Shown here piece after piece: positions 14,655-59,823 of a stretch of 64,000 bases of DNA. Below the pieces are notes generated by a model, which ran no database searches, was not told where the DNA came from, and was given only the letters and a program-made list of their open reading frames with translations. Every line of letters starts with the position of its first letter. The stretch's first letter is position 1. The position numbers and the translations under genes were made by a program. The stretch is from NCBI GenBank assembly GCA_964019415.1, contig OZ025876.1, forward strand, positions 3,275,272 to 3,339,271, in the 5' to 3' direction. Origin of the DNA: Ianthella basta (Eukaryota; Porifera; Demospongiae; Verongiida; Ianthellidae).

Positions 14655-17503
14655 ATGGCCAGAATGGCAATATTTTGGCTCTTGGTCGGCCTTTGCTTTC
14701 GTTTGGGATATTCAGACCGAATCAGCCACGTTGGTCCGCAAACTGGCGAAAACGCTAATAGCACCGTCTACTTGGGAGGCCTTTTCCCCGTACACCGTGC
14801 AGGGCGTCTGCTCAATGCTGGCTTCGAGATGGCAATGGGCATGGTCTACGCGGTGAAGACTATTAACCAGAACGAGGAGATTCTGCCCCGCATCAGTCTC
14901 GGATTTGATATTCACGACACCTTTGGGCATGTAAACATGGCTTTGGAGGAATCTCTCGCGTTCCTTTCCCAACAGCGCGGTGGTATTGCAATCAGTGCAA
15001 ACGGTACTGAAAGATACTTTAGCGGAGTCGTTGGTACGACCTCCAGCTCTGTGTCTATCCCTGTGGCGTCACTTCTGAGACTGTTCAAACTTCCTCAGAT
15101 AAGCCCAGCATCCACTGCAGAATCGCTCAGCAACAAGGAAGAGTTCGAGTTCTTTTACCGTACGGTACCACCGGACAGCGGCCAGGTGCAGGTAATGTAC
15201 AACTTAGTGAAGCTCTTCAATTGGACTTATGTGTCGATCATTTACACTGCAGACGTATATGGAGAAAGCGGGTTCAAAGGGCTGCAAAAGGCGTTTGAAG
15301 AAGACAATAGTAGCAACATCTGCATAGCCAACAGTATACCACTGTCGACTGGGATAGGCGAGTTGGAATATGATGGTGTTGTGAATAGGTTGATGGAGAA
15401 CTACAGGAAGAATGCTACCGTTGTCATCCTGTTTGCTCTGCACATAACAGCTATAGGTGTAACACAAGCATGGCAACGTAGGCAGTCAGTGAATCCAGGA
15501 GATGAGATAACATGGATAGTTAGTGACAGTGCAGCCAGAATTCTACCCTGGGCTAGAGGAATGCTCGGTGTGTACCCTACATTGCGAGTCAGTGCTAAAT
15601 TCAGCACATGGTTTAAGCAGATTGGTGAGAGCAACACTGCGGGCAGCCCATGGGTGAGTGAGTACTTGGACAGCATCTTTGGATGTATGCTATACTCAAA
15701 TGGAACTTCACAGGGTGACTGCGACCATGAAAATGTAACCATTGGTGACATTGCAAACTATGAAACAACCATATTTGTACCTCCTACAATTGATGCAGTG
15801 TATGCATTTGCCCATGCATTGCATAACATGACTGCAGAAATGTGCAATTATACTTTATGTGATGCAATTCTTGAAACAGCTTCTTCACTAAAGATTAACG
15901 GGGATCTCTTTCGCCAATACCTTGGAAGAGTACAGTTTGCTGGTGTATCACAAGAAACAGTGGCGTTTGATGCCAACCAAGATCTTGAAGGTGGTGGGTA
16001 TATTATTGTCAATCTACAACCAACCACTGGCAATGAATCTGAGTACAAGGAGGTGGGGAATTGGTCAAACAGTGAACTCAACTTGAGAGTCGATGAGATA
16101 TGGTGGAATACCATTGATCAACAGCCACCTCTCTCTACCTGCAGCCTACCTTGTGCATTTGGGTACTTTGAGAGAATAGTTCCTGGTGAGGCTCAGTGCT
16201 GTTGGACCTGTGAACCATGTGGTGCTGAGCAGGTGAGTGATGGGAAGACCTGCACTAGCTGTCCTGCAGGTGAAATTCCTGACCAGCGACGACAATACTG
16301 CAGGCGGCTAACTTTGGGAGTTTTGGATTGGTCACATCCACTGGCTATGTCACTGCTGATTGTTTCATTACTTGGAGCTGCAATGACTGCTGTATTTATG
16401 GTTGTGTTTGTAGTTTTCAGGAAGACTCGAGTCATCAAGGCCACAAGTAGGGAACTAAGTGCTGTCATTCTTTGTGGAATTCTTCTATGTTACCTTCTTC
16501 CACTAATTTACATTGGAACACCACACGCAGTGTCTTGTGCACTTAGACGGTTTGGTATTGGCATTTGCCTGTCCCTCTGCTTTGGTGCCATGTTGGTGAA
16601 GCTGACTCGCATTCATCGAATTTTCAATCAAAAGACAATTTCTGTCAAACTGCCCCACTTTATTGACTGGAAGTCACAGCTAGTCTTTACTGCAATGATT
16701 GTGTCATTTCAGCTCCTTATTGGCACAGTGTGGCTCATAGTGGAGCACCCTGGAGTTACTGAACTGGTACACAGTGATTTTATCGAGCTCCGCTGTCAGG
16801 CCAATCCATACGCTGGTTTGTCTGTCAGTCTTGCCTACAACTTCCTCCTTTTGATTGGCTGCATCTACCTTGCAATTCGTACTCGGAAGGTGCCGGCTGA
16901 TTATAACGAAACCCGATTCATCCATATCACTGTTTTCTCTGTGTGTGTCATCTGGTTAGCATTCCTTCCCGTATACTACAGCACCACATTGCTGCACCCA
17001 ACCATCTATATCTCAAGTCAGATTGTGGCCATATTCATGACAGCAACATGCCTTGTTGTCTTTCTAATCATTCCCAAGTTGTACCTCTTGATTGTGAAGA
17101 AACAGACGCAGGAGTACACAACAACTCAGTACACTAGCAACACTGCTCAAGCTTCATACTGTACCAAGCAGAATTGTTCATGTGCATGCCATGCAGGTAC
17201 GTATGTGTATATATTATTGCTGGTTGCTGTAACTAGGCCTACTGAAGCATGTTGCATTGTAACCTGGCTAATGAACACACACAATCACCTGTATACTTGA
17301 TAAACAATAGTGGACTAATGAACAATGGTATTCATTCTTGCTAATTGTTCACAGGCATAATGGGGGCCATCCCTAAAGACAGTGATGTGCATTTGAAGAC
17401 AACTGCTAAGACTAGTGAAGAGGGAGGCAGCCAGTCTGCAGTACCAGTGGAAAGGACAGTCACAGTTGCATTTGCAGAGGAAGAAACGAAGACTGCAGAC
17501 TGA
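14655..17503 (+). CDS. Receptor 1: mGluR-like class C GPCR, type A
   Basis: Two coding exons, 14655-17196 and 17355-17503 (intron GTACGT...ACAG; phases agree), give 896 residues. A 65-base 5'UTR intron lies at 14526-14590. Order: signal peptide (1-20), Venus-flytrap ligand domain (about 35-490), nine-Cys linker (495-551), seven membrane segments (about 563-811), Cys-rich juxtamembrane tail (NCSCACHAG), and a short acidic tail ending in VAFAEEETKTAD. The seven-helix part has mGluR hallmarks: RKTRVIKATSREL, VCVIWLAFLPVYY, PKLYLL. Residues equivalent to mGluR1 Ser165, Thr188, Asp208, Tyr236 and Asp318 are present (about S131, T154, D174, Y202, D291). The glutamate side-chain contacts Tyr74, Arg78 and Lys409 are Ala, Met and Leu. 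Plasma-membrane chemoreceptor coupling to G proteins is inferred from the family. Confidence 0.9.
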
Positions 17504-17979
17504 AGCTCATCCTTTCTTTTCTGAATTATTACATAGGAGCATTTACTTAAGGGTCACTCATCTTACTGTAGGAACATTGTGCATACTACGTAGCACTTCT
17601 CATCAGTGGATAGTATCTGAGAAGCTTGCCAGTGTGTGTGTGTGTGTATTTTTATGCATAATATACTGTACGTGTGTGGGATGATAACACAAACTGTGTC
17701 AGGATGCGATTTGAAATAGTATCAAGATGAAGAGCTGGCAATCCATGAACAGTGGAGATGCCATGAAGTAAAAATATTGCTGATTTAGATATTGAGCCAT
17801 CACTGATTTAAGCAACTGCATGTGCCAAGTGTAGGTAGCTATAGTCAACTAGCATGTGGAACTAGCTTATGTAGGTGTTTATTCCCACATGGTATTATGT
17901 AGTGACCAAGCTAAGTGAGGTAGGTCCATACATATTACATCACACACTTTATTTAGGTAGAGCTAAGTGATGAAGCCAC
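17504..17979. other. 3' flank of receptor 1
   Basis: Probable 3'UTR and spacer, including a (TG)n tract near 17632-17648. It resembles the region after receptor 2 (42012-42930), showing that 3' flanks were duplicated together with the receptors. Confidence 0.5.
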
Positions 17980-20355: not shown

Positions 20356-23300
20356 TTAGAGTACACTGCATCCCCAGCAGCAGGTTTGGGGGTAGGAATC
20401 AGTGTACACCAGACGGTTATCACCATACACAAAGTAGGTGAACTCCTTGGCCTTCCAAATACTCCTTACTTCGGACACAGGGATAATACGCACACAATGA
20501 CGCTGTAGTAGTACAAGTGGAAAAGGGAAAGAGACAAGAATGTTTCTTCTACACAGAACAACTACTACAGTGCATGCTATCTGCTGCACACCAGGAAACT
20601 ACATGGGGAATATAGTATATACAGTAAGGGGTGGTATGTAGGGTATTGCACAGGTCACCTCCACGTAGTGTTGTATGTTTCCATTTTGCAAATGCCAAGG
20701 AAGTCATTAATTGCACTAAATGCATGTATACAGCTGATCTACTACTGTATTTGGAGATAGATCAAAATTTGGTCTAAACGTGTCCCCAATGACTATGAGA
20801 CAATTAATGCATAGATCATCCTTGATCCCTCCACCAACACATCAAGCTCTTCCTCCTACCTGCATATGGATAAGCTCTTTGTTTGCAAACTGCCTCAAGT
20901 GGGAGTCCAAAAGCCGTTGTGAAGCACTGTTGATCTCTGCCTCCTGGAAACCAACCACTGGGTACAGCTACAGAATAGGGTCAACAACAGACCAGTTTAG
21001 TGTAGAGTATATGTCATCCATTACATAATGTCACCATGAAGGCAGCCCTTCAGCATATCTCAAAGACACTGTACACATACACATGTACAGACAGTGCTTT
21101 ATTACACAAACCCTTGGCTGCTGATCCTCAAAGGCTAGTGTTCCAGTAGCTCCTCTGATCAGCTCATCTGGGAGGGCTGTCCTCTCTACAATGTGGTCCA
21201 ACTTGTGGTTCTTCCTAAGGAGGGAGTAGAGTGCCAACAGATGCAAGCAATGCTGGCTTGACTCCAAACACCTATTAAATGTGTAACATTGCACTTGGGG
21301 CTGAGGAAGGGAGGTTGATAATGAGTATACTCCTCAGCATCATTGTAGGGTTGGAACAAGGCCAGATGAAATGCTCGGCTCCTCTTGTTCCTTGAAGGAT
21401 GCATAGTATGTTTTGTGAGGTGTCAACGTGGCACACTCATTTCTATGCAATGCTGAGTGACACTGAATCAGCACTTAGTCACTGCTCTAGCCTCCTAGTT
21501 TCTGTGCATTTTATGCCAGTATACAGGGTGGGTGCATGTTGGAGGCACTGAAACTTCCACACAGCCATCTTGGTGTCTGGAAACTTCTATGTAATATCCT
21601 CCTTACCTAGTTGCTGAAATCAACTCTCATAAAATGAAGCATATAGTGTGGCTGTGATACAAAATACATTTAAACACACCATTTACTTCATTTCTGCAAG
21701 ATAATAAGTAAACATCATATTGAATATCCATAGAATAAACACTAATGAGCAGGACATGCCTTGGGCACAAGGCAGTGTCTAGTGACCTATGTAACGTTAC
21801 ATAATTATAACCATCTCTCTTACAAGTGCAAGTACAAACACTTTCAACCCACCATACAGCACTCAACTGAAAGATGGTAAGTTGATTGAAAATGGCGGAT
21901 TGTGTACGATGGACAGTGTGATTCACAGTTTGATCTGCTGATCGCTTCTCAGTGTTCACAATGCCTTGCTGTCGGTGTAACGCCAGCGGCACATGTGCCA
22001 GATGTAAGTGTTCCAAGGAAGGATCAAATTGTCGGGATTGCTTTCCCGGGAGATTAGGAAAGTGTTCAAATCCTGCCCTTGCTACGACAGCCGATGATTT
22101 GCTGGCAGATAGTACGCAACCACATGATTCTTCTATCGTTGAAGAGGAGCCCAACAGCGTGGAGGAGACTAATGCGAGCATTCCTCAGACTTCGCCAGCT
22201 TCGAACTGCCCACCCCTGCCTCCCTTCGAACTCTCCAGAGCCCCAAATTTCATGTGGGGCTCAATGACAGGAGAACAGTTTTGTAAGAAGATTGACAAAT
22301 GTTACGAAGAAATGGTGACGTGGAGGAGGAACATTTTCAAGATTCCATCAGGGAAGCAGGGACAGGCCTTTGTAGGTGAACTTGCGAAGTTGTATGGCTC
22401 TTTTGGTGAGGCTACCTCAATGGAGTGCATTGCCCTCAAAGCTGCCATGACGTTTCCATCCCTCATTCTGCAAAAACCATCACGTCAGTCCAAATCAAAG
22501 GACCATGTCCTGTGTATCCAGCAAAGAATGCAGCTGTGGGGTAATGGTGAACTGAACAAGCTATTGGAAGAAGTTAGGGCCATACAGTCACATCTACCCC
22601 CAATTAATCATGACAACAATCAATCTAAAAACATCGCAAGAAGATTTGCTGAACTGATGGCAGAAGGCAAGATTCGGGCTGCAACACGTCTACTGGACAA
22701 CAGTGGTGACGGTAAAGCAGGAGTGCCACTTGTTCCCAATGATGTCATTGAGACTTCAGAGGGTTCATGCACTGTGCGGGATGCTCTGATCAAGAAACAT
22801 CCACCAGCACAACCATATGATCCCTCAACTCTACATCAGCCGACAAATGAGACTCTACCTTTCCACCGCATGTTGTTTGAGTCAATCAATGCAACCGCCA
22901 TACACACAGCTGCTCTGAAAACCAATGGAAGCCATGGACCCTCCAACTTGGATGCTGCAGCATGGCGTCGCATGTGCTGCTCGTTCAAGGGGTCATCACA
23001 GGAGTTATGTGAAGCTGTTGCGAAAGTTGCCAGAAGACTTGCTGGTAGTCCACTGGACCCTCATCCTATCCAAGCCCTTATAGCAAGTCGTCTGGTAGCA
23101 CTAAACAAGTGCCCTGGGATTCGACCTATTGGAGTGGGGGAGGTGAGTCGGAGGATCATTGGCAAGGCAATCCTCTCGGTGATTTCCGAAGACATTGAGC
23201 AGGTTGCAAGCACATATCAGCTGTGTGCTGGTCAGAAGGGTGGTTGTGAAGCAGCAGTGCATGCAATGAGAAACTTCCTGGAACATGATGACACTGAGGG

Positions 23301-26300
23301 GCTGCTCTTTGTCGACGCAACCAATGCTTTCAACACACTTAATCGTGAAGCTGCATTGAGGAACATCCAAGTCCTGTGTTTGTCACTTGCCAATGTGGTT
23401 TAAACACGTACAGGCTTCCACCCAATCTGTACATCAATGGTGAGGCAATAACGTCATCAGAGGGTACTACTCAGGGTGATCCACTCGCCATGAGTATCTA
23501 CACCATTGCGACCTTACCTTTGATCATGGAACTAGACAACCCTTCAAAACAGCTGTGATTTGCAGATGATGCGGCTGCTGCAGGAAGATTGCAAGCAGTG
23601 AAGCAGTGGTGGGACAGGTTGGCAGAAAGAGGGCCAAAATACGGCTACTCTGTAAATCCATCCAAAACCTGGCTAGTCGTTAAGGAATGTCATCTCAACT
23701 CTGCCAAAGAACTCTTCAAGGACACTGGTGTTCAGGTCACAGCCGAGGGAAAAGTATATCTGGGATCCTTCATTGGCCCAGATGACAAGAAGGATCTGTT
23801 TGTGCAAGACAAGGTTGACAGCTGGTTAGGAGAGCTTGAAGAACTTTCCTCCATTGCCATCACCCAGCCTCATGCCGCTTTTTGTGCCTTCACACACGGA
23901 GTGATGAATAAATGGTGGTATCTGTTCAGGACTATCGGAGAGATTGCAGACAGTCTAGAGCCCTTAGAAGAAGCCATCAGGTACAAGTTTGCCCGTGCTG
24001 TAACGGGACGCCCAACATTCAGTGAGAATGAAAGAGATATTCTATCACTCCCAGCAAGAATGGGAGGGCTAGACCTTTGCAAACCAATGGAATCAGCCCA
24101 AGAAGAATACATGAACTCGTGTACTGCAACGGCACCCCTAGTCCAAGCTGCCTCTCAACAGGAAAGAGCACAGATGCACGAATGTTCAGCTGAAGTAGCA
24201 ACCGTCAAGAATGAGCTTAAAGCCCAGAAGAGAAAACACCTAAAGGAAAAAGCAGAAGCCATACGATACAATGCCTCAAATGACATGAAGCTTGCTATGG
24301 ACTTAGTAAAGGAGAAGGGGGCATCTAGCTGGCTCAGTGTTCTTCCAATTGAGGAGTTTGGCTTCTTCTTACATAAGGGAGCATTCCGGGATGCCGTTGC
24401 CTTGCGGTACGTATGGCAGCCACCCAATCTCCCAAATGTGTGTGTTTGTGGCAAGAACCTGACTGTGGATCATGCCTTCACCTGCCCCACAGGTGGACTA
24501 CCAACGCTGAGGCATAACGACATCAGGGACCTTATGGCTGACCTCATGGCAGAGGTCTGCAACAATGTCTGCACAGAACTAGAGCTACAGCCCCTGTCTG
24601 GTGAAGCACTGCAAAGAAGATCTGCCAACTGTCAAGATGGTGCCAGAGTGGATATCAGAGCTGAGGGGTTCTGGGAGCGGTCACAGAATGCATTCTTCGA
24701 CGTAAGGGTATTCAATCCCATCGCACCAAGTAACCGTTCCCGAAGCCTTTCTGCCACATACCAACAGCACGAGAAGCTAAAGAGAAGAGAATATGAACAG
24801 AGGATTCGAGAAGTGGATCACGGTTCCTTTACACCCATTGTCTTGGCAGCAACAGGAGGGATGGGCAATGCGGCACAAGTGACATTCAAGAGAATGGTGT
24901 CAATGCTTGCAGCAAAACGTGAACAACCCTATAGCAAAGTGATGAACGTGGTACGATGCATGCTCAATTTCTCGTTGATCAAGTCCCAAATCAGGTGAAT
25001 CAGGGGCTCAAGATGAACCGTGGGTCGTGCGGTCAAGACCCCGATTTGCATGATTGCCAGTGAGGGGCGTGTCCCCTCAATCTAACTTGTCATCCTATGA
25101 CCCAATTAACTGCAATCCATATTCCCTTAACATTTTCCCTTTCTTTTCCCAATGTATATGTGTTATGTATGGGCAGTGCGCATGTGTGCCTATTACTGTT
25201 ATCATAGAAGAAAGAAAAAGATGGTAAACTATTGTGCAAACGTGCAACAACCCCTAAAATAAAAAACATACAGCACTCACCACTCAATCTTCAGTTCAAT
25301 GTAAAACTTCAGCTGTCCAGCACCTTTGCATTCCTGGCACTGCACCTGACCATGACCATGGCAAGTGTAACACCTGAGGAGTGCAACAGACAGGCAAATG
25401 AAGGTCACTTGATCCAATTTGTCACATATTCTAAGCATTGCACAGTGATTCCCACAAACAATGTAGAATCCCTCATTGGATTGCTGTGCACAAACTTTAG
25501 AACTGAAGTTATCAAGAAAATGATTTTTTCAGGATTAGAACACAAAACCAGTAACTGCTGACCACTGTACAAGGCAGTTCTCGGTAGCTTGCTTCAGTTG
25601 AGAGGCAGGGTTTACAGAGAGAGTATTTAGCTTAACTGCTGAAGTACGATGAAAATGTTGAACATAACTACTGAAGTATGATGTGACAATTCTGTCTGAT
25701 TCAGGAGCATTAGTAAGCACAATCTGCTGAAGAGAGTGGTTCATCTTGAACGTTTCAACCCTGACGGTTGTCATCACAAGTTGGATTCTGGATCCATCAT
25801 GGACTCCCTTTCTTCGCCCAAGTAGAAGTCACATGATCAGAAGTGCTGCGGTGGGTAGTCCAAACTCTATATAAGGGGGGCAACTTTTGTGACACTTCAA
25901 CCTGCTGATGACAACCCTCAGGTCGAAACATTCAGGATGAATCACTCTCTTCAACAGATTGTGCTTACTAGCACTCCTTAATCAGAGAGAATTGTCACAT
26001 CATCATCTAGAATCAGCGCAATCAGAAATCCTTACTCAATAACTAGTGAATTATGATGAAAAAGAATGAAGTATAATGATAAAAAACAAGGTGTGATGAT
26101 AATGAACAAAATTTTGCGCACTGATTTTATACTATTAACAAAAATCTATGGTGCATAGAATAACTAATTGCTGAGCCACGCACTTCAGTGCACATTTGTA
26201 AACACTGACTGCCTCTAGTCACCACTTGTAGGCACACCTGGCCACTAACCATAGCAACCCACATATGGACTCACACTTTGCGGCCTGACCCATGGCAGAA

Positions 26301-29300: not shown

Positions 29301-32300
29301 GTAGGCTGTCACCTATCTCTTTTCACAGATAGCTGGACTCAAATTACGTCCAATCCTTGGGTTTTGGAGGCAATATCAGGATACAAGTTAGAGCTTCTAG
29401 GGCACCCTTCACTGGAAAACCCCCCAGGCAGCATACAGTTGGAGACAACCAAGGCCCAGATACTGTCACAAGCTGTCCTGGATCTGGCTTCCAAGGGAGC
29501 AATCGTCCCGAGCAACGGAAGCAAAGACGGCTACATCAGCCAGATATTCCTGGAGCCCAAGTCCAACGGCTCATGGCGCCCAGTCATCAATCTCAAGTCC
29601 CTAAAAGGTAGATCGTGGTTCGCCATTTCAAGATGGAATCCATCAGGACAGTGAAAGGGCTACTGATGCCAAGAGATTGGCTAGTGAAGCTGGACCTCAA
29701 GGATGCGTACCTAACAGTCTCGATTCACAAGTCCCATCAGAAATTCTTGAGCTTTTGTTGGGAGGGCAGGGAGTGGCAGTTCCAGGCCCTCCCCTTTGGG
29801 CTGAGCAGTGCCTCATACATTTTCACTGAGGACATGAAGCCAGTAATAGCCACAATGAGACGACTGGGAATCAGGCTGATACTCTAGCTCGACGACATGC
29901 TGATTATGGACCAGAACAGGGACAGAGTGAAGCACAGTTTAGCAACAGCAGTGGAACTCCTGATTTCGTTGGAATTCACCATCAATCTCAAGAAGAGTGT
30001 TACTGTCCCAGCTCAGGAGATACAGTTCCTGGGTTTCTCACTGGACTCCCAGACAATGTCGATTGCGCTACCTCAGAGCAAATTACTTTGCTGACGAGTA
30101 CAGCAAGGGAGATGAAAGAGAAGAAACAGACGACAGTTCGAGACCTGGCCCCGGCTCTTACGGTCAATGGTACCAGCTCACCTGGCAATCCTACCAGCTC
30201 CCCTTTAATACCACAACCTAGAACGAGCCCGGTCCAAAGCCCTGCAGAGTGGGCTGACATACAAGTCAGAAATTGTGCTGGATCACCAGATGAGGGCAAA
30301 CTTGAAGTGGTGGGCAACTCAATGCAGTCAGTACAACAGCAGGCCACTGCAAATCCCCCACTGGGATCTCATGATAGAGACCGATGCCTCCACACTGGGT
30401 TGGGGAGCAAACTGCGAAGGAGTGACTACAGGGGGCCCTTGGATGCCAGGGGAGAAGTCCCACCATATCAACTATCTGGAGCTCCTGGTGGCATTTCGAG
30501 CTCTAAACTCATTTGCAACCAATCATTGCATAGTCTCCATCCTTCTTCAAATGGACAACATTACGGTGATGTCCTTCATCAACAGAATGGGAGGAACCCA
30601 CTCTGCAACCCTGTCAGATCTAGCCCTGGAAATATGGAAATGGTGTCTGGAGAGGGGAATAACAGTACATGCAGAGCACCACCCAGGGTCAGAGAAGACC
30701 CAGGCGGACTGGGAATCCCGTCATGTGAAGGACTCCAGCAACTGGAGGTTAAAGAGGAAGATATTCCTACGGCTAGAGGACCAACTGGGTCCTTTCTCAA
30801 TCGGCCTTTTTGTCTCTCGGACAAATGCCCACCTCTCAGTTTACTGCAGCTGGAGACCAGATCCTGCAGCCCTAGCAGTGGATGCACTATCGATCAAGTG
30901 GCAAGGTCACCTCCCTTACATGTTCCCACCATTTGCCCTCATCCTTCATTGTCTGGAGAAGTTGAGGCAAGAAGAGGTATCAGTAGTTCTAATCGCTCCG
31001 GTTTGGCCCAATCAAGTGTGGTTCCCGCAACTTCTCCTGAGTCTAATAGATTACTCAGTCCTGTTACCACCAACACAGGACATCCTGACTGAACCCGAGG
31101 GCCGCAGCCAGCCGATGATCATGGAAGGCCACCTGCCACTGGCCGCGTGGCCTGTCTCAGGTGTTCCTGGCAGTTTGAAGGACTTTCAGATGCAGTTGTT
31201 GCCATCATCGGGAAATCCTGGCAATTTTCCACAGAATAAGCCAACTTAAGTGCCTGGCGACTGTGGGATAGTTGGTGTTCTGAACGGAATATCAGACCTT
31301 ATCCGAGAAATTCTAGAATTCCTACTCAGCCAGTTTGAAACAGGCAAGCAGTATCGCACCATCAACACTAGCCAGTCAGCCATATCTATGACCCACAAGG
31401 AAATAGATGGTGTTCCGGTGGGACGGCATCCATTAGTTCTCGCTTCCTACAGAGGGTCTTCAACTCCCACCCTCCAGCCCCAAAGTATTCTATGACTTGG
31501 GATGTTGACATTGTCTTGTCCCACATTAGAGGGATGGAGGACAATGAGGAGCTATCTTCCCAGTTGCTGTCTCATGATCTGGCTATGCTGTTGGCCTTGA
31601 CAAATGCAGATAGGTGCTTCGATTTGGCAGCCTTGGATCTGACTTATCAATCTTTTCAAGGGAATGGGGTGAAATTCATCATCCCTGGCTTCGAGACGCA
31701 GTGGCCCACCAAGGGAGGCCTTCTATCCAGCATTTGCACCAGTTCCAAAGCTATGTCCAGTTCAGACCCTTCAGTGTTATGAAAAGAGGTCAGAGAAGCT
31801 GCATACCTGTGGTAACAGTTCTCCAGAAAAAGCACTCTCCATCCGGAGACCCCACAGATCGGTCAAGCTAGCTACCATTGGCCATTGGCTGAAAGGTATT
31901 ATGAAATCTGCAGGCATTGACACGGACATTTTTACTGCGCATTCCACCCGTGGTGCATCTACATCAAAGGCCAAGGCAGCGGGGGTCCCTACGGCAGACA
32001 TTCTGAAGGCGGCCAACTAGAGCTCTACTTCCACATTTGCCATTTTCATCAAAAGCCGATTGACTCTCGCAGATTTGGCTGTAGTGTTCTAGAGGAGAAA
32101 TAACTTCCTCCATATAGTGGTGAGCTTTGAACGATACCATGTACTAAACTGACTATGTTGTAGAAGCGTATCCGGAAGCTCTGAAGTACAAATATAGATT
32201 CCTCAAGGATTGTCTATAATCCTTAGAGGAGGATGAATTGTATGAGGAGATAAAGGATACACCGAGACAACATAGTCAGTTTCCCATCCTGAACCCATAC

Positions 32301-38860: not shown

Positions 38861-38997
38861 TGCGGGTAAGTGAGCTCCTTCAATTTACGATGCTGTACGT
38901 ACTTTTCAACTGAATTCTTCTTCTGTTTTACAGGTGCCACTGGTTTGAAAGGACTCCACCGTAGGGCCGCTTCATCGGGACAGGTCCAGGTGTAGTT

Positions 38998-41900
38998 ATG
39001 GCCAGAATGGCATTAATTTGGCTCTTCGTTGGCCTTTGCTTTCGTTTGGGACTTTCAGTCCGCATCAACCACGTTGGTCCGCAAACTGGCTTAAAAGCCA
39101 GTAGCACCGTCTACTTAGGAGGCCTATTTCCGATACAGGACACAAAAGGGCTCTTCAATTTCGGCTTCGAGATGGCCATGGGCATGGTCTACGCGGTGGA
39201 GACTATTAACCAGAACGAAGAGATTCTGCCCAATATCAGTCTCGGGTTTGATATTCACGACACCTTTGGGCATGTAAACACGGCTTTGGAGGAATCTCTT
39301 GCGTTCATTTCCCAGCAGTGCGGCGGTACTGCAATCGGCGCAAACGGTACTGTAAGATACTTTAGCGGTGTTGTCGGAGCGACTTTCAGCTCTGTGTCTG
39401 TCCCTGTAGCGTCACTTCTGAGGCTGTTCAATCTTCCTCAGATAAGTCCATCGTCCACTGCAGAATCACTCAGCAACAAGGAAGAGTTCGAGTTCTTCTA
39501 CCGTACGGTACCACCGGACAGCGGCCAGGTGCAAGTAATGTACAACTTAGTGAAGCTCTTCAATTGGACTTATGTGACGATCATTTACACTGCAGACGTG
39601 TATGGAGAAAGCGGGTTCAAAGGGCTGCAAAAGGTGTTTAAAGAAGACAATAGTAGCAACATCTGCATTGCCAACAGTATACCACTGTCGACCGGGATAG
39701 GCGAGTTGGAATATGATGGTGCTGTGAATAGGTTGATGGATAACTACAGGAAGAATGCCACTGTTGTCATCCTGTTTGCTCAAGAAGAAACAGCCATAGG
39801 TGTAACACAAGCATGGCAGCGTAGGCAATTGAAGACTCCAGGAGATGAGATAACATGGATAGCTAGTGACGGTGCGGCTAGAAATCTACCCTGGGCTAGA
39901 GGAATGCTTGGTGTCTACCCCAGATCACAAAGGAGCGTTGAGTTCAACACATGGTTTAAGCAGATTGGTGAGAACAACACTGCGGGCAGCCCATGGGTGA
40001 GTGAGTACTTGGATGGCAAGTTTGAATGTGTACGATACTCAAATGGAACTTCACAGGGTGATTGTGATCATGAAAATGTAACCATTAGTGATATTGAAAA
40101 TAATGAACCAACCATATTCGTACCTCCTACAATTGATGCAGTATATGCATTTGCCCATGCATTGCATAACATGACTGCAGAAATGTGCAATTATACTTTA
40201 TGTGATGCAATACTGGAATCAACTTCATCACTGAAGATCAATGGGGATCTCTTTCGCCAATTCCTTGGAAGAGTGCAATTTTCTGGTGTATCGCAAGAAA
40301 CAGTAGCCTTTGATGCCAACCAAGATCTTGAAGGTGGTGGGTATATTATTGTCAATCTGCAACCATCCACTGGCAATGAATCTGAGTACAAGGAGGTGGG
40401 GAATTGGTCAAACAGTGAACTCAGCTTGAGGGTCGATGAGATATGGTGGAATACCCTTGATAAACAGCCACCTCTCTCTACCTGCAGCCTACCTTGTGCA
40501 TTTGGGTACTTTGAGAGAACAGTTCCTGGTGAGGCTCAGTGCTGTTGGACCTGTGTACCATGTGGTGCTGAGCAAGTGAGTGATGGGAAGACCTGCACTA
40601 ACTGTCCTGCAGGTGAAATTCCTGACCAGCTACGACAACACTGCAGGCGGCTAAGTTTGGGAGTTTTGGATTGGTCACATCCACTAGCAATCATACTGTT
40701 GATTGTTTCATTACTTGGAGCTGCAATGACTGCTATATTTATGGTTGTGTTTGTAGTTTTCAGGAAGACTCGAGTCATCAAGGCTACAAGTAAGGAACTA
40801 AGTGCTGTCATTCTTTGTGGGATTCTTCTATGTTACCTTCTTCCACTAATCTACATTGGAACACCACACGCAGTGTCTTGTGCACTTAGACGCTTTGGTA
40901 TTGGCATTTGTCTGTCCCTCTGCTTTGGTGCCATGTTGGTGAAGCTGAGTCGCATTCATCGAATCTTCAATCAAAAGAAAGTTTCTGTCAAGCAGCCCCA
41001 CTTTATCGACTGGAAGTCACAGCTAGTCTTTACTGCAATAATTGTGTCATTTCAGCTTCTTATTGGCACAGTGTGGCTCATAGTGGAGCACCCTGGAGTT
41101 ACTGAACTGGTACACAGTGATTTTATCGAGCTCCGCTGTCAGGCCAATCCATACGCTGGTTTGTCTGTCAGTCTTGCCTACAACTTCCTCCTTTTGATTG
41201 GCTGCATCTACCTTGCAATTCGTACACGGAAGGTGCCGGCTGATTTTAACGAAACTCGATTCATCCATATCACTGTTTTCTCTGTGTGTGTCATCTGGTT
41301 AGCATTCCTTCCCGTATACTACAGCACCACATTACTGCATCCAACCATCTATATCTCAAGTCAGATTGTGGCCATATTCATGACAGCAACATGCCTTGTT
41401 GTCTTTCTAATCATTCCCAAGTTGTACCTCTTGATTGTGAAGAAACAGACAGAGGAGTACACAACAACACAGCATTCTGCCACCACTGCTCCAGCTTCAT
41501 TCTATGCCAAGCAGAAGTGTCCGTGTGCATGCCATGCAGGTACGTACGTGTGTATAATTGCTGTTTGCTGTAACTAGGCCTGCTGAAGCATGTTGCAGGG
41601 TAACTTAGCTAATAGACACACACAATCACCTGTATACTTTATAAACAATTGTGGACTGAATTAAACTGGTATTCATTTTTACATTTTTCAGGTATGTATG
41701 TGTATATATACTTGCTAGTTTGCTGGAACTAGGCCTACTAATGCATGTCGTATTGTAGTTTGGCTAATAGAGGCACACGATCACCTGCACACTTGCTGAA
41801 TCATAGTGGACTAATTAATACTGGCATTCACTATATTCAATACGTGTATGCTGGTTATTTGTCCATAGGCACACTGGGGGCCATTCCTGAAGACAGTGAT

Positions 41901-43487: not shown

Positions 43488-43728
43488 CAATGGTATGCAT
43501 GACTGGTACGCAGCTATTAGGAAATTGCCTTACTTGGACTCTGCTACTGTCACAAAGAAGTCAGTCTTCACAGGTAAGTTTATTTCTACTTCAAGCCGGT
43601 GCTGTTTCATTTTGCAAGTGACACCACCTTTAACCATTAATATGTTCCATGCATTCTATAGGGGTGTCGCTTGCAGAAATACTACAGTAGCACCAACAAC
43701 ACCACTATAGCTAGAAAGGTGTGCAAAA

Positions 43729-46509
43729 ATGTATTTCCTTCAGCTGTTAATCGCCATCTGCTGTCATTTGGGATGTTCAGTCAGTATCAGCCATGTTGGC
43801 CCGCAATCTGTTTCCGGTGGTTCGCCTGACAGTCGCACTGTTTACTTGGGAGGCCTGTTTCCAGTACACCGAAATCTCCAGACACGTGATCAGACCTGCA
43901 AGACGATCTTCGAAGTTGGCTTCGAATTGGCCATGGGCATGGTCTACGCGGTGGAGACCATTAAACAGAACGAAGAGATTCTGCCCAATATCAGTCTCGG
44001 ATTTGACATTCACGATACGTGTGCGCGTGTAAATACGGCTTTGGAAGAATCCCTCACGTTCATTTCCGGGCAATGTAGCGGCGATGCCATAGGCGCAAAC
44101 GGTACTAGAAGATACCTTAGCGGAGTCGTTGGTACGGCCTCCAGCTCTGTGTCTATCTCTGTAGCATCACTTCTGAGGCTGTTCAATCTTCCTCAGATAT
44201 GCCCTGCGTCCACTGCAGAATCGCTCAGCAACAAGGAAGAGTTCGAGTTCTTTTACCGTACGGTACCACCAGACAGTGGCCAGGTGCAAGTAATGTACAA
44301 CTTAGTGAAGCTCTTCAATTGGACTTATGTGTCGATCATTTACACTGCAGACGTGTATGGAGAAAGTGGGTTCAAAGGGCTACAAAAGGTGTTTGAAGAA
44401 GACAATAGTAGCAACATCTGCATTGCCAACAGTATACCACTGTCGCCAACAGCAGACGATTCGACATATGATGATGCTGTGAATAGGTTGATGGATAACT
44501 ACAGGAAGAATGCTACTGTTGTCATCCTGTTTGCTATACACCGTACAGCCATAGGTGTAACACAAGCATGGCAACGTAGGCAGTCAGCGAATCCAGGAGA
44601 TGAGATAACATGGATAGTTAGTGACGGTGCAGCTAGAAATCTGCCCTGGGCTAGAGGAATGCTCGGTGTGTACCCTACATCGCGAGCCAGTGCTGAATTC
44701 AGCACATGGTTTAAGCAGATTGGTGAGAACAACACTGCGGGCAGCCCATGGGTGAGTGAGTACTTGGACAGCATCTTTGGATGTGTGCGTTACTCAAATG
44801 GAACTTCACAGGGTGACTGCGACCATGAAAATGCAACCATTGGTGACATTAGCACCAAAGTGCCTACCATTTTCGTGTCACCTACTATTGATGCAGTGTA
44901 TGCATTTGCCCATGCATTGCATAACATGACTGCAGAAATGTGCAATTATACTTTATGTGATGCAATTCTGGAAACTACTTCATCACTAAAGATTAATGGG
45001 GATCTGTTTCGCCAATACCTTGGAAGAGTACAGTTTGCTGGTGTATCGCAAGAAACAGTAGCCTTTGATGCCAACCAAGATCTTGAAGGCAGTGGGTATA
45101 ATATTGTCAATCTGCAACCAACCACTGGCAATGAATCTGAGTACAAGGAGGTGGGGAATTGGTCAAACAGTGAACTCAGCTTGAGAGTTGATGAGATATG
45201 GTGGAATACCATTAATCAACAGCCACCTCTCTCTACCTGCAGCCTACCTTGTGCATTTGGGTACTTTGAGAGAACAGTTCCTGGTGAGGCTCAGTGCTGT
45301 TGGACCTGTGAACCATGTGGTGCTGAGCAGGCAAGTGATGGGAAGACCTGCACTAGCTGTCCTGCAGGTGAAGTTCCTGACCAGCGACGACAATACTGCA
45401 GGCGGCTAAGTTTGGGAGTTTTGGATTGGTCACATCCACTGGCAATCATACTGTTGATTATTTCATTACTTGGAGCTGTAATGACTGTCATATTTATGGT
45501 CATGTATGTAGTTTTCAGGAAGACCCGAGTCATCAAGGCCACAAGTAGGGAACTAAGTGCTGTTGGTCTTAGTGGAATTCTTCTATGTTACCTTCTTCCT
45601 CTAATTTACATTGGAACACCACATGCAGTGTCTTGTGCACTTAGACGCTTTGGTATTGGCATTTGCCTGTCCCTCTGCTTTGGTGCCATGTTGGTGAAGC
45701 TGAGTCGCATTCATCGAATCTTCAATCGAAAGAAGGTTTCTGTCAAACTGCCCCACTTTATCGACTGGAAGTCACAGCTAGTCTTTACTGCAATAATTGT
45801 GTCATTTCAGCTCCTTATTGGCACAGTGTGGCTCATAGTGGAGCACCCTGGAGTTACTGAACTGGTACACAGTGATTTTATCGAGCTCCGCTGTCAGGCC
45901 AATCCATATGCTGGTTTGTCTGTCAGTCTTGCCTACAACTTCCTCCTTTTGATTGGCTGCATCTACCTTGCAATTCGTACACGGAAGGTGCCGGCTGATT
46001 TTAACGAAACTCGACTCATCCATATCACTGTTTTCTCTGTGTGTGTCATCTGGCTAGCATTCCTCCCCATATACTACAGCACCACATTACTGCACCCAAC
46101 CATCTATATCTCAAGTCAGATTGTGGCCATATTCATGACAGCAACATGCCTTGTTGTCTTTCTAATCTTTCCTAAGTTGTACCACTTGATTTTTAAGAAG
46201 GAAACAAAAGAACTTACAAGTACTCAGTACAGCAGTCCACTTGTGCGCCAAGCAGAAGTGTCCATGTGCGAAACATGCAGCTGCAGGTATGAATGCTGGC
46301 CTACTAGTTCATGTCACATTGTAGCCTGACTAAGAGAGTCTTTATAACCAAGACATAGCTTGTATACAACAATGGAACCTGATGCACTTTGTACAAATGT
46401 ATATAAAGTGACGTGCTATGTATAGAATCTTGTGTATAAGATCTCACATACGTACATTACAATTTTTTCATGTTCGATTTACAGGCATCGCACAGGTGCA
46501 CTTTCCTGA
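43729..46509 (+). CDS. Receptor 3: mGluR-like class C GPCR, type B, altered tail
   Basis: The main exon is 43729-46286; a 5'UTR intron lies at 43574-43661. Signal peptide MYFLQLLIAICCHLGCS, Venus-flytrap domain, nine-Cys linker and seven helices are all intact. Type B features: an extra N-terminal segment with Cys (QTCKTIFE) and the partner Cys in HDTCARVN, equivalent to the mGluR1 Cys67-Cys109 pair. After helix 7 the frame differs from its paralogs: an indel around 46240-46250 shifts the Cys-rich tail. Splicing 46286 to 46485 then meets TGA at 46507, giving about 860 residues. If the intron is retained, the stop is at 46327. The tail exon still shows its ancestral frame (GIAQVHFPDD...) in the wrong phase. 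The receptor core should be functional; tail signalling is doubtful. Confidence 0.85.
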
Positions 46510-47930: not shown

Positions 47931-47939
47931 CAGTTAGCA

Positions 47940-49390: not shown

Positions 49391-49625
49391 CAATGGTATG
49401 CATGACTGGTACGCAGTTATTAAGGCACACAATCTGCCTTGGACTCTGCTACTGTCACAAAGAAGCCAGTCTGCACAGGTAAGTTTAGTTCTACTTCAAG
49501 CCGGTGCTATTTCATTTTGCAAGTGACACCACCTTTAACCATTAATATTTTCCATGCATTCTATAGGGGTGTCGCTTGCAGAAAGACTACAGTAGCACCA
49601 AGAGCACCAGTACAGGTGTGCAAAA

Positions 49626-52532
49626 ATGTATTTCCTTCAGCTGTTAATCGCCCTCTGCTGTCATTTGGGATGCTCAGTCAGTATCAGCCATGTTGGCCCG
49701 CAATCTGTTTCCAGTGGTTCGGCTGACAGTCGCACTGTTTACTTGGGAGGCCTGTTTCCAGTACACCGAAATCTCCAGACACGTGATCAGACCTGCAAGA
49801 CGATCTTCGAAGTTGGCTTCGAATTGGCCATGGGCATGGTCTACGCGGTGGAGACCATTAACCAGAACGAGGAGATTCTGCCCAATATCAGTCTCGGATT
49901 TACTATTCACGACACTTGTGCACGTGCAAATACTGCACTGGAAGAATCTCTCGCGTTCCTGTCCCAGCAGTGCAGTGGTACTGCAATCGGCGCAAACGGT
50001 ACTGAAAGATACTTTAGCGGAGTCGTTGGTACGACCTCCAGCTCTGTGTCTATCCCTGTAGCATCACTTCTGAGGCTGTTCGGACTTCCTCAGATAAGCC
50101 CTGCGTCCACTGCAGAATCGCTCAGCAACAAGGAAGATTTCGAGTTCTTTTATCGTACGGTACCACCGGATAGCGGCCAGGTGCAAGTAATGTACAACTT
50201 AGTGAAGCTCTTCAATTGGACTTATGTGTCAATCATTTACACTGCAGACGTGTATGGAGAAAGTGGGTTCAAAGGGCTGCAAAAGGCGTTTGAAGAAGAC
50301 AATAGTAGCAACATCTGCATAGCCAACAGTATACCACTGTCGCCAACAGCAGACGATTCGGCATATGATGATGCTGTGAATAGGCTGATGGAGAACTACA
50401 GGAAGAATGCTACTGTTGTCATTTTGTTTGCTCTGCACCGAACAGCTATAGGTGTAACACAAGCATGGCAACGTAGGCAGTCGGTGAATCCAGGAGATGA
50501 GATAACATGGATAGTTAGTGACGGCGCAGCCAGAAATCTGCCCTGGGCTAGAGGAATGCTCGGTGTGTACCCAACATCGCGAGCCAGTGCTGAATTCAAC
50601 ACATGGTTTAAGCAGATTGGTGAGAGCAATACTGCGGGCAGCCCATGGGTGAGTGAGTACTTGGACAGCATCTTTGGATGTGTGCGTTACTCGAATGGAA
50701 GTTCACAGGGTGACTGCAACCATGAAAATGCAACCATTGGTGACATTAGCAACAAAGTGCCTACCAATTTTGTACCTCCTACTATTGATGCAGTGTATGC
50801 ATTTGCCCATGCATTGCATAACATGACTGCAGAAATGTGCAATTATACTTTATGTGATGCAATACTGGAAACTATTTCTTCACTAAAGATTAACGGGGCT
50901 CTCTTTCGCCAATACCTTGGAAGAGTGCAATTTTCTGGTGTATCACAAGAAACAGTAGCCTTTGATGCCAACCAAGATCTTGAAGGCGGTGGGTATATTA
51001 TTGTCAATCTGCAACCAACCACTGGCAATGAATCTGAGTACAAGGAGGTGGGGAATTGGTCAAACAGTGAACTCAGCTTGAGAGTCAATGAGATATGGTG
51101 GAATACCACTGATCAACAGCCACCTCTCTCTACCTGCAGCCTACCTTGTGCATTTGGGTACTTTGAGAGAACAGTTCCTGGTGAGGCTCAGTGCTGTTGG
51201 ACCTGTGAACCATGTGGTGCTGAGCAGGCAAGTGATGGGAAGACTTGCACTAACTGTCCTGCAGGTGAAATTCCTGACCAGCGACGACAATACTGCAGGC
51301 GGCTAAGTTTGGGAGTTTTGGATTGGTCACATCCACTGGCTATCATACTGCTGATTGTTTCATTACTTGGAGCTGCAATGACTGCTGTATTTATGGTTGT
51401 GTTTGTAGTTTTCAGGAAGACTCGAGTCATCAAGGCCACAAGTAGGGAACTAAGTGCTGTCATTCTTTGTGGAATTCTTCTATGTTATCTTCTTCCTCTA
51501 ATTTACATTGGAACACCACACGCAGTGTCTTGTGCACTTAGACACTTTGGTATTGGCATTTGTCTGTCCCTCTGCTTTGGTGCCATGTTGGTGAAGCTGA
51601 GTCGCATTCATTGAATCTTCAATCGAAAGAAGGTTTCTGTCAAACTGCCTCACTTTATTGACTGGAAGTCACAGCTAGTCTTTACTACAATAATTGTGTC
51701 ATTTCAGCTCCTTATTGGCACAGTGTGGCTCATAGTGGAGCACCCTGGAGTTACTGAACTGGTACACAGTGATTTTATCGAGCTCCGCTGTCAGGCCAAT
51801 CCATACGCTGGCTTGTCTGTCAGTCTTGCCTACAACTTCCTCCTTTTAATTGGCTGCATCTACCTTTCAATTCGTACACGGAAGGTGCCGGCTGATTATA
51901 ACGAAACTCGATTCATCCATATCACTGTTTTCTCTGTGTGTGTTGTCTGGTTAGCATTCATTCCCGTATACTACAGCACCACATTACTGCACCCAACCAT
52001 CTATATCTCGAGTCAGATTGTGGCCATATTCATGACAGCAACATGCCTTGTTGTCTTTCTAATCATTCCCAAGTTGTACCTCTTGATTGTGAAAAAACAG
52101 ACACAGGAGTACACAACAACTCAGTACTCTGCCACTACTGCTCCAACTTCATTCTGCTACAAGCAGAACTCATGTGCATGCTATGCAGGTATGTATGTGT
52201 GTATAATTGCTAGTTTGCTGAAACTAGGCCTACTAATGCATGTCGTATTGTAGTTTGGCTAATATAGGCACACGATCATCTGCACACTTGCTGAACCATA
52301 GTGGACTAGTTCATATTAGCATCAATTACAGTTACAGTATGATCGTATGATTGCTTGCTAATTTGGCACAGGCACGTGCACAATGGGGGCTGTCCCTGAA
52401 GACAGTGATGTGCATTTGAAGAAAACTACTAAGACTAGTGAAGAGGGAGACAGCCAGTCAGCAGCACCAGTGGAAAGGACTGTCACAGTTACATTTGCAG
52501 AGGAAGAAACAAAGACTGCAGACTGTATTTAA
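49626..52532 (+). pseudogene. Receptor 4: chimeric class C GPCR with one nonsense codon
   Basis: Exons 49626-52188 and 52372-52532 would give 907 residues in a single frame, except for TGA at 51612-51614. All four full-length paralogs have CGA (Arg) there, in the HRIF motif at the cytoplasmic end of helix 3. The product would stop after 662 residues, keeping the signal peptide, ligand domain, Cys linker and helices 1-3. The rest is undamaged, so the mutation is recent, or the allele is segregating. A 5'UTR intron lies at 49479-49566. The N-terminal half is type B (MYFLQLL, QTCKTIFE, HDTCARAN). The end is type A (KKQTQEYTTTQ, tail exon with DSDVHLKK and FAEEETKTAD). It could also encode a secreted or membrane-tethered ligand-binding decoy. 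Confidence 0.85.
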
Positions 52533-52974: not shown

Positions 52975-53103
52975 GTGATCTATTTGCTTGTATTGAACAT
53001 CATAGCAATGAGCCTCTACGGCATTCATTATTGTTTACATTGATTTGATCACATTGCTTGCACACCTGTGTCCAGTCATGATTCACAACAGCATTTGACT
53101 CCG

Positions 53104-53528
53104 GAGGTTGGATGTTTCAGCTCTTTATTGGCACAGTGTGGCTCATAGTGGAGCACCCTGGAGTTACTGAACTGGTACACAGTGATGTTATTGAGCTCCG
53201 CTGTCAGGCCAATCCATACACTGGCTTGTTTGTCAGTCTTGCCTACAACTTCCTCCTTCTGATTGGCTGCATCTACCTTGCAATTCGTACATGGAATGTG
53301 CCGGCTGATTATAACGAAACCCGATTAATCCATATCACTGTTTTCTCTGTGTGTGTCATTTGGTTAGCATTCCTTCCTGTATACTATAGCACCACATTAC
53401 TGCACCCAACCATCTATATCTCAAGTCAGATTGTGGCCATATTCATGACAGCAACATGCCTTGTTGTCTTTCTAATCATTCCCAAGCTGTACCTCTTGCT
53501 TGTGAAGAAGGAAACAGAGGAACTGTGA
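53104..53528 (+). pseudogene. Orphan 3' fragment of a type B receptor
   Basis: An open frame from 53112 encodes helix 4 (FQLFIGTVWLIVEHPG) through helix 7 and the start of the tail (KLYLLLVKKETEEL), then TGA at 53526-53528. Everything upstream of helix 4 is missing and replaced by spacer, with the join near 53104-53115. The ending KKETEEL is type B, whereas receptor 4 just upstream has type A at this place. No signal peptide, no promoter and no tail exon, so it is a gene fragment. Confidence 0.85.
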
Positions 53529-53660
53529 ATGCATGGGATTGTCCAATCTAATAGGTTGGACGTTGAAGTTCCACCTGAGTGACTTTTATTTCATGAATAA
53601 GGAGTACAGACTTCATCATTCAGACTTTGGAGTTCCTATTCTCTATGGGTGAAAGTGTAT
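53527..53660. repeat. Dispersed repeat shared with 47797-47930
   Basis: Begins at the stop codon of the orphan fragment and matches the region downstream of receptor 3. It may mark a recombination or insertion boundary. Confidence 0.55.
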
Positions 53661-56542: not shown

Positions 56543-56862
56543 AAATCCGCTGTAAGTGCTGACAGCCATATATTACCGTTGCCATAGCAACTACCACCAA
56601 ATGGCCTTATAAGTCAATGTTAGTATATATCAGGCACCCATAAGCTGTACTGCCATATATAATATAGCTAAACCAACTCTGCTACCGTCACGAAGCCTAG
56701 TCTACATGGGTAAGTTTATTTCTCTTTCAATATGCTGCCTTTTGACTTTGTAAGTGCACCATCATAAGCCCTTTTTGATATGTTCTATGCATTCTATAGG
56801 GGTGTCGCTTTTGCAAAAAGGCTACAGTAGTATCAACAGCTCCGCTCGCTAGGTGTGCTAAA

Positions 56863-59823
56863 ATGCATTTCCTTCAGCTGTTAATCGCCCTCTGCTGTCA
56901 TTTGGGATGCTCAGTCAGTATCAGCCATGTTGGCCCGCAATCTGTTTCCAGTGGTTCGGCTGACAGTCGCACTGTTTACTTGGGAGGCCTGTTTCCAGTA
57001 CACCGAAATCTTCAGACACGTGATCAGACCTGCAAGACGATCTTCGAAGTTGGCTTCGAATTGGCCATGGGCATGGTCTACGCGGTGGAGACCATTAACC
57101 AGAACGAAGAGATTCTGCCCAATATCAGTCTTGGATTTGACATTCACGACACTTGTGCACGTGCAAATACTGCACTGGAAGAATCTCTCGCGTTCCTGTC
57201 CCAGCAGTGCAGTGGTACTGCAATCAGTGCAAACGGTACTGAAAGATACTTTAGCGGAGTCGTTGGTACGACCTCCAGCTCTGTGTCTATCTCTGTAGCA
57301 TCACTTCTGAGGCTGTTTGGACTTCCTCAGATAAGCCCGGCATCCACTGCAGAATCACTCAGCAACAAGGAAGAGTTCGAGTTCTTCTACCGTACGGTAC
57401 CACCGGACAGCGGCCAGGTGCAAGTAATGTACAACTTAGTGAAGCTCTTCAATTGGACTTATGTGTCGATCATTTACTCAGCAGATGTGTATGGAGAAAG
57501 CGGGTTCGAAGGGCTGCGAAAGGTGTTTGAAGAAGACAATAGTAGCAACATCTGCATTGCCAACAGTATACCACTGTCGCCAACAGCAGACGATTCGGCA
57601 TATGATGATGCTGTGAATAGGCTGATGGATAACTACAGGAAGAATGCTACTGTTGTCATCCTGTTTGCTCTGCACCGAACAGCTATAGGTGTAACACAAG
57701 CATGGCAACGCAGGCAGTCAGTGAATCCAGGAGATGAGATAACATGGATAGTTAGTGATGGCGCAGCCAGAAATTTGCCCTGGGCTAGAGGAATGCTCGG
57801 TGTGTACCCTACATCACGAGCCAGTGCTGAATTCAACACATGGTTTAAGCAGATTGGTGAGAGCAACACTGCGGGCAGCCCATGGGTGAGTGAGTACTTG
57901 GACAGCATCTTTGGATGTGTGCAATACTCAAATGGAACTTCACAGGGTGACTGCGACCATGAAAATGCAACCATTGGTGACATTAGCAACAAAGTGCCTA
58001 CCATTTTCGTGTCTCCTACGATTGATGCAGTGTATGCATTTGCCCATGCATTGCACAACATGACTGCAGAAATGTGCAATTATACTTTATGTGATGCAAT
58101 ATTGGAATCAACTTCAGCACAAAAGATTAACGGGGCTCTCTTTCGTCAATACCTTGGAAGAGTACAGTTTGCTGGTGTATCGCAAGAAACAGTAGCATTT
58201 GATGCGAACCAAGATCTTGAAGGCAGTGGGTATATTATTGTCAATCTGCAACCATCCACTGGCAATGAATCTGAGTACAAGGAGGTGGGGAATTGGTCAA
58301 ACAGTGAACTCAGCTTGAGAGTCGATGAGATATGGTGGAATACCATTGATCAACAGCCACCTCTCTCTATCTGCAGCCTACCTTGTGCATTTGGGTACTT
58401 TGAGAGAACAGTTCCTGGTGAGGCTCAGTGCTGTTGGACCTGTGTACCATGTGGTGCTGAGCAGGCAAGTGATGGGAAGACTTGCACTAACTGTCCTGCA
58501 GGTGAAATTCCTGATCAGCGACGACAATACTGCAGGCGGCTAAGTTTGGAGGTATTAGATTGGTCTCATCCATTATCTATTGCACTGTTGATTGTTTCAT
58601 TACTTGGGGCTGCAATGACTGCTGTATTTATGGTTGTGTTTGTAGTTTTCAGGAAGACTCAAGTCATTAAGGCCACAAGTAGAGAACTAAGTGCTGTCAT
58701 TCTTTGTGGAATTCTTCTATGTTATCTTCTTCCTCTAATTTACATTGGAACACCACACGCAGTGTCTTGTGCACTTAGACGCTTTGGTATTGGCATTTGT
58801 CTGTCCCTCTGCTTTGGTGCCATGTTGGTGAAGCTGAGTCGCATTCATCGAATCTTCAATCGAAAGAATGTTTCTATCAAACTGCCCCACTTTATTGACT
58901 GGAAGTCACAGCTAGTCTTTACTGCAATAATTGTGTCATTTCAGCTCCTTATTGGCACAGTGTGGCTCATAGTGGAGCACCCTGGAGTTACTGAACTTGT
59001 ACACAGTGATTTTATAGACCTCCGCTGTCAGGCCAATCCATATGCTGGTTTGTCTGTCACCTTTGCCTACAACTTCCTCCTTTTGATTGGCTGCATCTAC
59101 CTTTCAATTCGTACACGGAATGTGCCGGCTAATTATAACGAAACCCGATTCATCCATATCACTGTTTTCTCTGTGTGTGTCGTCTGGTTAGCATTCCTTC
59201 CTGTATACTACAGCACCACATTACTGCGCCCAACCATCTATATATCAAGTCAGATTGGGGCCATATTCATGACAGCAACATGCCTTGTTGTCTTTCTAAT
59301 CATTCCTAAGTTGTACCTCTTGATTGTGAAGAAGGAAACGGAGGAACTCGTAACAACTCAGTACACTAACAAGAATGCTCCAGCCTCATTCTGTACCAAG
59401 CCGCAGTGTCCATGTGCATGTCATGCAGGTACGTGTGTACAATTGCTGGTTGGTGGCACTACAGGTCTACTAGTTCATGTTGCATTGTAGCTTGCCTATT
59501 ACCAAGAGCAGTTACCTATTCCTATACCCATTACCAAGAACAGTTTACTGACCATGGAACATGCTTAGGATGATGCTTTCGCGGACACATGCACTTGTGT
59601 ATGCAATCACAAATCAGTGCAGTTTGTCTGTTCCATGTTCATAGGCATCAAACTGGCACACTTTCCTAAAGACAATGACTTTCAGTTGAAAGATAATACA
59701 AAGGAAAGGAAGAACAAAGAAACTACAAATGCTGAAGAAGAAGGGAAAACTTTAGACTGGTTGCCAGAGGGAGGGATTGTAACAGTTGGGTTTGCAGAGG
59801 AAGAAACAAAGACTACAGAGTAA
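56863..59823 (+). CDS. Receptor 5: mGluR-like class C GPCR, type B
   Basis: Coding exons 56863-59428 and 59645-59823 give 914 residues; phases agree. A 5'UTR intron of 90 bases is at 56710-56799. Type B signal peptide and N-terminal Cys pair (QTCKTIFE, HDTCARAN). Ligand-backbone residues are kept (SSSVS, PASTAES, VPPDSG, VYGESG, VSDGAAR); mGluR1 Arg78 and Lys409 equivalents are Leu and Leu. The tail exon is the second kind: GIKLAHFPKDNDFQLK, then a Lys/Glu-rich stretch, ending VTVGFAEEETKTTE. It shares KKETEEL and the tail type with receptor 3 and the orphan fragment. It is the only type B receptor here with every part intact. Its promoter region differs from receptors 3 and 4, with no identical TATA box. 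Confidence 0.9.

Follow-up and report, generated by a model that had tools for sequence, protein, structure and literature searches.

Tandem array of mGluR-related receptor genes in Ianthella basta with a conserved amino-acid backbone pocket and a probable ligand other than glutamate

Analysis of a 64,000-nucleotide stretch of the Ianthella basta genome (hereafter the window; contig C9, OZ025876.1, C9:3275272-3339271) and of related genes in the same assembly points to a tandem birth-and-death array of mGluR-related receptors, which probably bind alpha-amino acids, or close analogues of these, other than glutamate. An earlier note on this DNA, made from the letters of the window, had proposed that the ligands are amino acids, or small molecules related to them, and not glutamate. 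Judged by the pocket residues, this still appears to be the best reading after correction of one residue assignment, with a Phe at position 409.

Receptor genes in the window

The class C GPCR genes of the window, all on the forward strand, comprise four intact single-ORF copies, one further copy with an in-frame TGA and one 7TM fragment. The uninterrupted receptor ORFs extend over 14622-17300, 38965-41577, 43711-46329 and 56800-59490 and contain the genes R1 (14655..17300, counted from the first ATG), R2 (38998..41577), R3 (43729..46329) and R5 (56863..59490). A fifth long ORF (49596-52253) is broken by a single TGA at 51612-51614; it contains R4 (49626..52253), of which the first piece covers positions 1-98 of the 7tm_3 model and the second piece positions 100-251. 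The fragment (53082..53528) belongs to the same receptor family and carries the second half of 7tm_3 only. The span given in the earlier note, 14655..59823, begins correctly at the first ATG of R1, while its end has to be moved to 59490, where the final ORF stops.

For R1, R2, R3 and R5 the Pfam domains ANF_receptor (the Venus flytrap, VFT), NCD3G (the nine-cysteine domain) and 7tm_3 were identified in that order, all above the curated cut-offs, and the two pieces of R4 jointly carry the same three domains. Among solved structures the best matches of R5 are mGluR7, mGluR4 and mGluR8 (444-453 bits), followed by mGluR1 (396 bits). Since R5 scores 453 bits against mGluR7, chance resemblance can be excluded. 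Its VFT is 34% identical to that of mGluR7 and to that of mGluR4. Both the domain order and the closer match to mGluR7 than to CaSR (309 bits at best) assign these genes to the mGluR-related class C receptors with a Venus flytrap.

Several other elements were observed in the window. Two adjoining ORFs between R1 and R2 (21934-24998) resemble a non-LTR reverse transcriptase by eye, and overlapping ORFs at 29830-31249 resemble a DIRS/Ngaro-type retroelement by eye; neither region gave a Pfam match at E 0.001. On the minus strand, an ORF at 61563-63977 starts with a proline-lysine-serine-rich repeat and matches the Nischarin C-terminal PH domain and PLEKHM2 PH models. Nested near-perfect inverted repeats occupy 3653-6181; their arms include some of 342 nt (98%) and 275 nt (91%), and the repeat units follow each other at intervals of 75 nt.

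Distribution in the genome

A search of the same chromosome-scale assembly (209.1 Mb in 96 contigs) with R5 as query gave 38 match rows. The array to which the window genes belong spans 209 kb (C9:3125922 to 3334758), with every copy on the forward strand. Ten of its copies are intact single ORFs of 868-896 codons (L008, L007, L011, L005, L006, L004, R1, R2, R3 and R5). The non-intact ones are R4 with its TGA, three copies split over two frames (L012/L023, L013/L024 and L020/L021) and fragments. The pair L007/L008 was considered as a haplotype-duplicate artefact; its identity of 95.0% over 4.3 kb is below the expectation for an assembly duplicate, though not decisively so.

A sister array of five intact copies (L015-L019), 52-54% identical to R5, is located at C5:8046003-8084410, likewise on the forward strand, and an intact single gene, L025, 34% identical, at C19:6372707-6375199. 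The best PDB match of L025 is mGluR3 (456 bits). With the mGluR1 ligand-binding region as query, matches with E < 1e-6 were restricted to the two arrays and L025, and weaker ones were found on C15, C12 and C9. In a tree based on the VFT, the two arrays group together (100/99), and L025 is unplaced (74/47); the separation of these receptors from CaSR is likewise weak (74/47). For the alignments, 17 of the 38 match rows were taken (11 array copies, five sister copies and the single gene), omitting frameshifted copies, fragments and weak matches.

Genome-wide, 89 matches to 7tm_3 were recorded in all. Many further exon-like ones lie on C3, C11, C12, C13, C17 and C22, several of them clustered on one strand, and are perhaps GABA-B-like arrays. 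A silicatein query against the genome yielded 29 matches, of which the best by E-value was 38% identical over 193 residues and short pieces reached 67%; among three examined more closely, the two with a visible catalytic motif have GSCWAF, the cathepsin form, and a degenerate pattern gave no hit.

Ligand-binding pocket

The 17 receptors were aligned by MAFFT with mGluR1, mGluR4, mGluR7 and CaSR. Numbering follows mGluR1, in which the Arg of GIQR is residue 78; the mGluR1 sequence is identical to PDB chain 7dgd_A over 470 residues. The residues that hold the amino-acid backbone are conserved almost throughout: Ser165, Asp208, Tyr236 and Asp318 are unchanged in all 17 receptors and Thr188 in 16 of them, with Ser in L025. 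Identity at all five positions in the 11 aligned array copies bears out what had been noted from the window. In R5 the corresponding codons are located at 57277..57279 (Ser165), 57346..57348 (Thr188), 57406..57408 (Asp208), 57490..57492 (Tyr236) and 57757..57759 (Asp318), on the forward strand as are all R5 codons given below.

The side-chain contacts are replaced. All 11 array copies have Ala, Phe or Val at the position of Tyr74 and Met or Leu at that of Arg78, as the earlier note had read them; in R5 these are a Val (57049..57051) and a Leu (57061..57063). For Lys409 that note had reported Leu, by aligning CDAIL with CDAMK. This anchor was wrong, because the Lys of CDAMK is Lys443 and Lys409 is located in DSKMGF. 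The true Lys409 position is occupied by Phe in 11/11 array copies, 5/5 sister copies and L025 (58006..58008 in R5), and the Lys443 position by Leu in nine of the 11 array copies and by Gln in two, including R5 (58120..58122). Since the corrected position holds a Phe, the non-glutamate reading survives the error. The sister array has Ser or Tyr at 74, Trp (three copies) or Glu (two copies) at 78 and the same Phe at 409. An intermediate pocket was observed in L025, which keeps Arg78 and has Arg, Ser and Phe at 74, 188 and 409, respectively. In L006 (C9:3204714-3207299), which is intact, a short in-frame duplication (TIFLP/TIFVS) adjoins the Phe equivalent to Lys409.

These assignments were read out for R1-R5, two sister copies and L025 in 28 alignments, combining seven row sets with four MAFFT modes. 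The 12 multi-receptor alignments place Phe at position 409, as do the eight of R5 with mGluRs and the four of R1 with mGluR1; the four of R2 with mGluR1 place Pro there. In none of the 28 do R1-R5 carry Arg or Lys at 74, 78 or 409. The deviations are confined to pairwise alignments with mGluR1 alone, in which R2 has Asp at 78 in one of four modes and R1 is gapped at 74 in all four. The phmmer alignments of R5 to mGluR7 and mGluR4 agree by eye.

The main caveat concerns a neighbouring residue. Beside a shortened loop, Arg occupies column 322 in 11/11 array copies (57769..57771 in R5), and the column of Arg323 itself holds Asn, Asp or Ile. Arg was found at 323 in one of the 28 alignments (R1 with mGluR1, where Asp318 is gapped too), and 322-323 are gapped in two. 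According to PMC5457512, Tyr74 and Arg323 close the mGluR1 pocket at about 2.5 A from the gamma-carboxylate. The conserved Arg322 may accordingly place a basic residue near the pocket, and an Arg or Lys in the side-chain pocket is what the earlier note had named as speaking against its own reading. It could then be supposed that these are still receptors for acidic amino acids (glutamate or aspartate), in which Arg78 and Lys409 are replaced by a repositioned basic residue, for example Arg322, which is invariant in 11/11 copies and one residue away from the pocket-closing Arg323 of PMC5457512. This appears unlikely. Tyr74 and both published key contacts, Arg78 and Lys409, are lost in 11/11 array copies, so that the pair of basic equivalents that marks the glutamate-responding mGluR classes I-III is replaced by M/L and F; position 322 is a Thr in the sister array, whose residue 78 is Trp or Glu; and just these changes are predicted in PMC6307864 to abolish glutamate binding. 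AlphaFold2 models of the five window VFT+CRD sequences reached a mean pLDDT of 34.2.

Integrity and constraint of the copies

The cysteines vary among the copies. Cys67 and Cys109, which form a disulfide, are absent as a pair in seven of the 11 array copies, among them R1 and R2, and L004 has Cys109 only; R3-R5, the sister array and L025 keep both. The equivalent of Cys140, described as the inter-subunit cysteine of mGluR1 (PMC5457512), is Arg in R1, alone among the 11 copies. The dimer-joining loop, for which two Cys (129 and 131) are reported in CaSR (PMC5457512), has a single Cys in R2-R5 and lacks Cys altogether in R1.

Such losses, together with the TGA copy, the three two-frame copies and the several fragments, could indicate that the array consists mostly of decaying or ligand-free copies, either pseudogenes or partner subunits of the GABA-B2 type. 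We regard this as improbable in view of the ten intact copies, the invariant backbone contacts, the ICL3, TM6 and TM7 segments, which are mGluR-like by eye, and the constraint on the VFT. The VFT is under purifying selection. Over the 11 array copies including R4, three VFT regions gave pN/pS values of 0.24-0.34, and sliding windows along the VFT gave 0.10-0.56; positive selection is not indicated there. Values were looser outside it (signal peptide 0.62, CRD 0.58, C-tail 0.72). One sliding window approached 1 (residues 491-550, pN/pS 1.05); it straddles the VFT-CRD border and its pS is just 0.03.

Divergence and homogenisation among paralogues

Two linked pocket types could be distinguished in the 11 array copies: F164/S186/Q292-E293 in L008, L007, L011 and R2, and S164/A186/(L or I)292-H293 in the other seven, including R3 (I292) and R5 (L292). 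To compare pocket with non-pocket variation, ten distal and nine backbone sites of mGluR structures were used. Of these, 74 and 323 are named in PMC5457512 and 78, 165, 186, 188 and 409 in PMC5796112, with 78 and 409 also in PMC6307864.

In the array VFT, seven of the ten distal sites are parsimony-informative, against 69 of the 426 remaining columns (one-sided Fisher 0.0003; 0 of 444 circular shifts reach seven), and two of the nine backbone-contact sites. Restricted to the distal sites named in the literature, three of four are informative (Fisher 0.016; 15/444 shifts). The sister array points in the same direction more weakly, with 4/10 distal sites against 68/435 (Fisher 0.06; 27/453 shifts), including the W78/E78 split, and 2/4 for the literature-named subset (Fisher 0.12; 59/453 shifts). 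The enrichment suggests a greater divergence of the paralogues at sites of the side-chain pocket than at other sites; it is only suggestive because the distal set was settled when the first alignment was already in view, and because gene conversion links the sites.

The CRD and 7TM are more uniform. Mean pS within the array, calculated for the ten intact copies, falls from 0.267 at the VFT start to 0.067 in the CRD and 0.073-0.137 in the 7TM, with about 0.07 in the later 7TM, and pS between the arrays is flat over the same regions (0.685-0.772). Because the between-array value stays flat, the dip is attributed to homogenisation and not to codon constraint. This fits a homogenisation of the CRD and 7TM by gene conversion within the array, and the mismatch of nearest neighbours agrees with it: in the 7TM, eight of the nine other copies have L005 as their nearest neighbour, and in the first VFT part this holds for just one of those eight (L006). 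The sister array lacks this regional pattern and has one dip, in the early 7TM.

Predicted ligands and mode of action

In the preferred reading, with alpha-amino acids other than glutamate as ligands, the Venus flytrap would grip the alpha-amino and alpha-carboxylate groups of the ligand via the equivalents of Ser165, Thr188, Asp208, Tyr236 and Asp318 and then close. The distal pocket, which in mGluRs grips the gamma-carboxylate through Tyr74, Arg78 and Lys409, is predicted to be hydrophobic here (A/F/V, M/L and F), and neutral or hydrophobic side chains would be favoured because 74, 78 and 409 are non-polar. The cysteine-rich domain could relay the closure to the 7TM domain, intact-looking by sequence, and gene conversion would keep the cysteine-rich and 7TM parts alike across the paralogues. 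As distal and lower-lobe pocket sites differ between them, the paralogues may prefer different ligands. For the sister array, aromatic ligands are predicted for the copies with W78, which shares its column with Trp70 of CaSR, and basic ligands for those with E78.

A narrower form of the same reading holds that the ligands are not standard amino acids, but analogues, peptides or microbial or algal metabolites with an alpha-amino-acid head. The pocket logic is the same as in the insect receptor DmXR (mangetout), for which PMC2695807 reports a response to L-canavanine with an EC50 of 0.5 mM and states that the classical amino acids had all been tried earlier without finding a ligand; no feature of the sponge sequences points to analogues more than to standard amino acids. 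We consider this form quite possible, though short of probable.

More tentatively, the two arrays of this early-branching animal might be understood as small receptor repertoires, in which a common signalling framework, homogenised by gene conversion where the array is larger, is combined with flytrap side-chain pockets tuned to classes of amino acids: aliphatic or aromatic for M/L78 with F409 in the present array, aromatic for W78 and basic for E78 in the sister array. Their ancestor would already have been without Lys409. If amino acids other than glutamate are indeed the ligands, then the classical glutamate grip is incomplete in every one of the 17 mGluR-like receptors examined, and yet relatives that should serve other amino acids were amplified. 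Amino-acid chemosensing could then be tested with few natural paralogues that are a few pocket residues apart on a nearly identical receptor body, and the W78/E78 split of the sister array would offer a natural contrast for ligand comparison.

Comparison with known receptors

The vertebrate receptors mGluR4, mGluR7 and mGluR8 are the best matches of R5 and have the same domain order; mGluR4 and mGluR7 keep Arg78 and Lys409, whereas the array has M/L and F. CaSR resembles the array in holding the amino-acid backbone with a pocket that is not uniformly basic, having Trp70 at the Arg78 column, described as part of a hydrophobic cluster (PMC11785791), and Ile at the Lys409 column. It differs by Glu297 at the Asp318 column, where the array has Asp in 11/11 copies. 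The T1r taste receptors, compared by description and not by sequence, likewise hold the backbone with a pocket that is not uniformly basic, the T1r2a pocket being described as an aromatic-lined charge mosaic (PMC5457512).

DmXR, a functional example of this pocket logic, is reported to give no glutamate response (PMC2695807, PMC6307864), and the same residue logic has been published for class IV mGluRs and for non-bilaterian mGluRs (PMC6307864). Class IV mGluRs are described as bilaterian, whereas the genes studied here form a young tandem array with Phe at 409 and with pocket differences within the array; the likeness noted here is one of pocket residues. Large mGluR-like sets are reported in placozoans, cnidarians and sponges (PMC10133484, PMC4302439), with 34 members in Trichoplax, 28 in Sycon (a figure legend gives 29) and seven mGluR homologues among 33 class C receptors in Amphimedon (PMC10133484, PMC4302439, PMC6307864). 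According to the same three sources, most non-bilaterian mGluRs retain the backbone contacts and a minority is predicted to bind glutamate. The array is like these expansions in being a large lineage-specific set. In the open-access literature consulted, no account was found of tandem mGluR-like arrays with a homogenised 7TM and pocket-focused differences, nor of tandem structure or gene conversion in the non-bilaterian expansions. Thus both the pocket pattern, from DmXR, class IV and non-bilaterian mGluRs, and the large non-bilaterian expansions were already known, and the fresh part suggested by the present results is pocket-focused diversification within tandem arrays.
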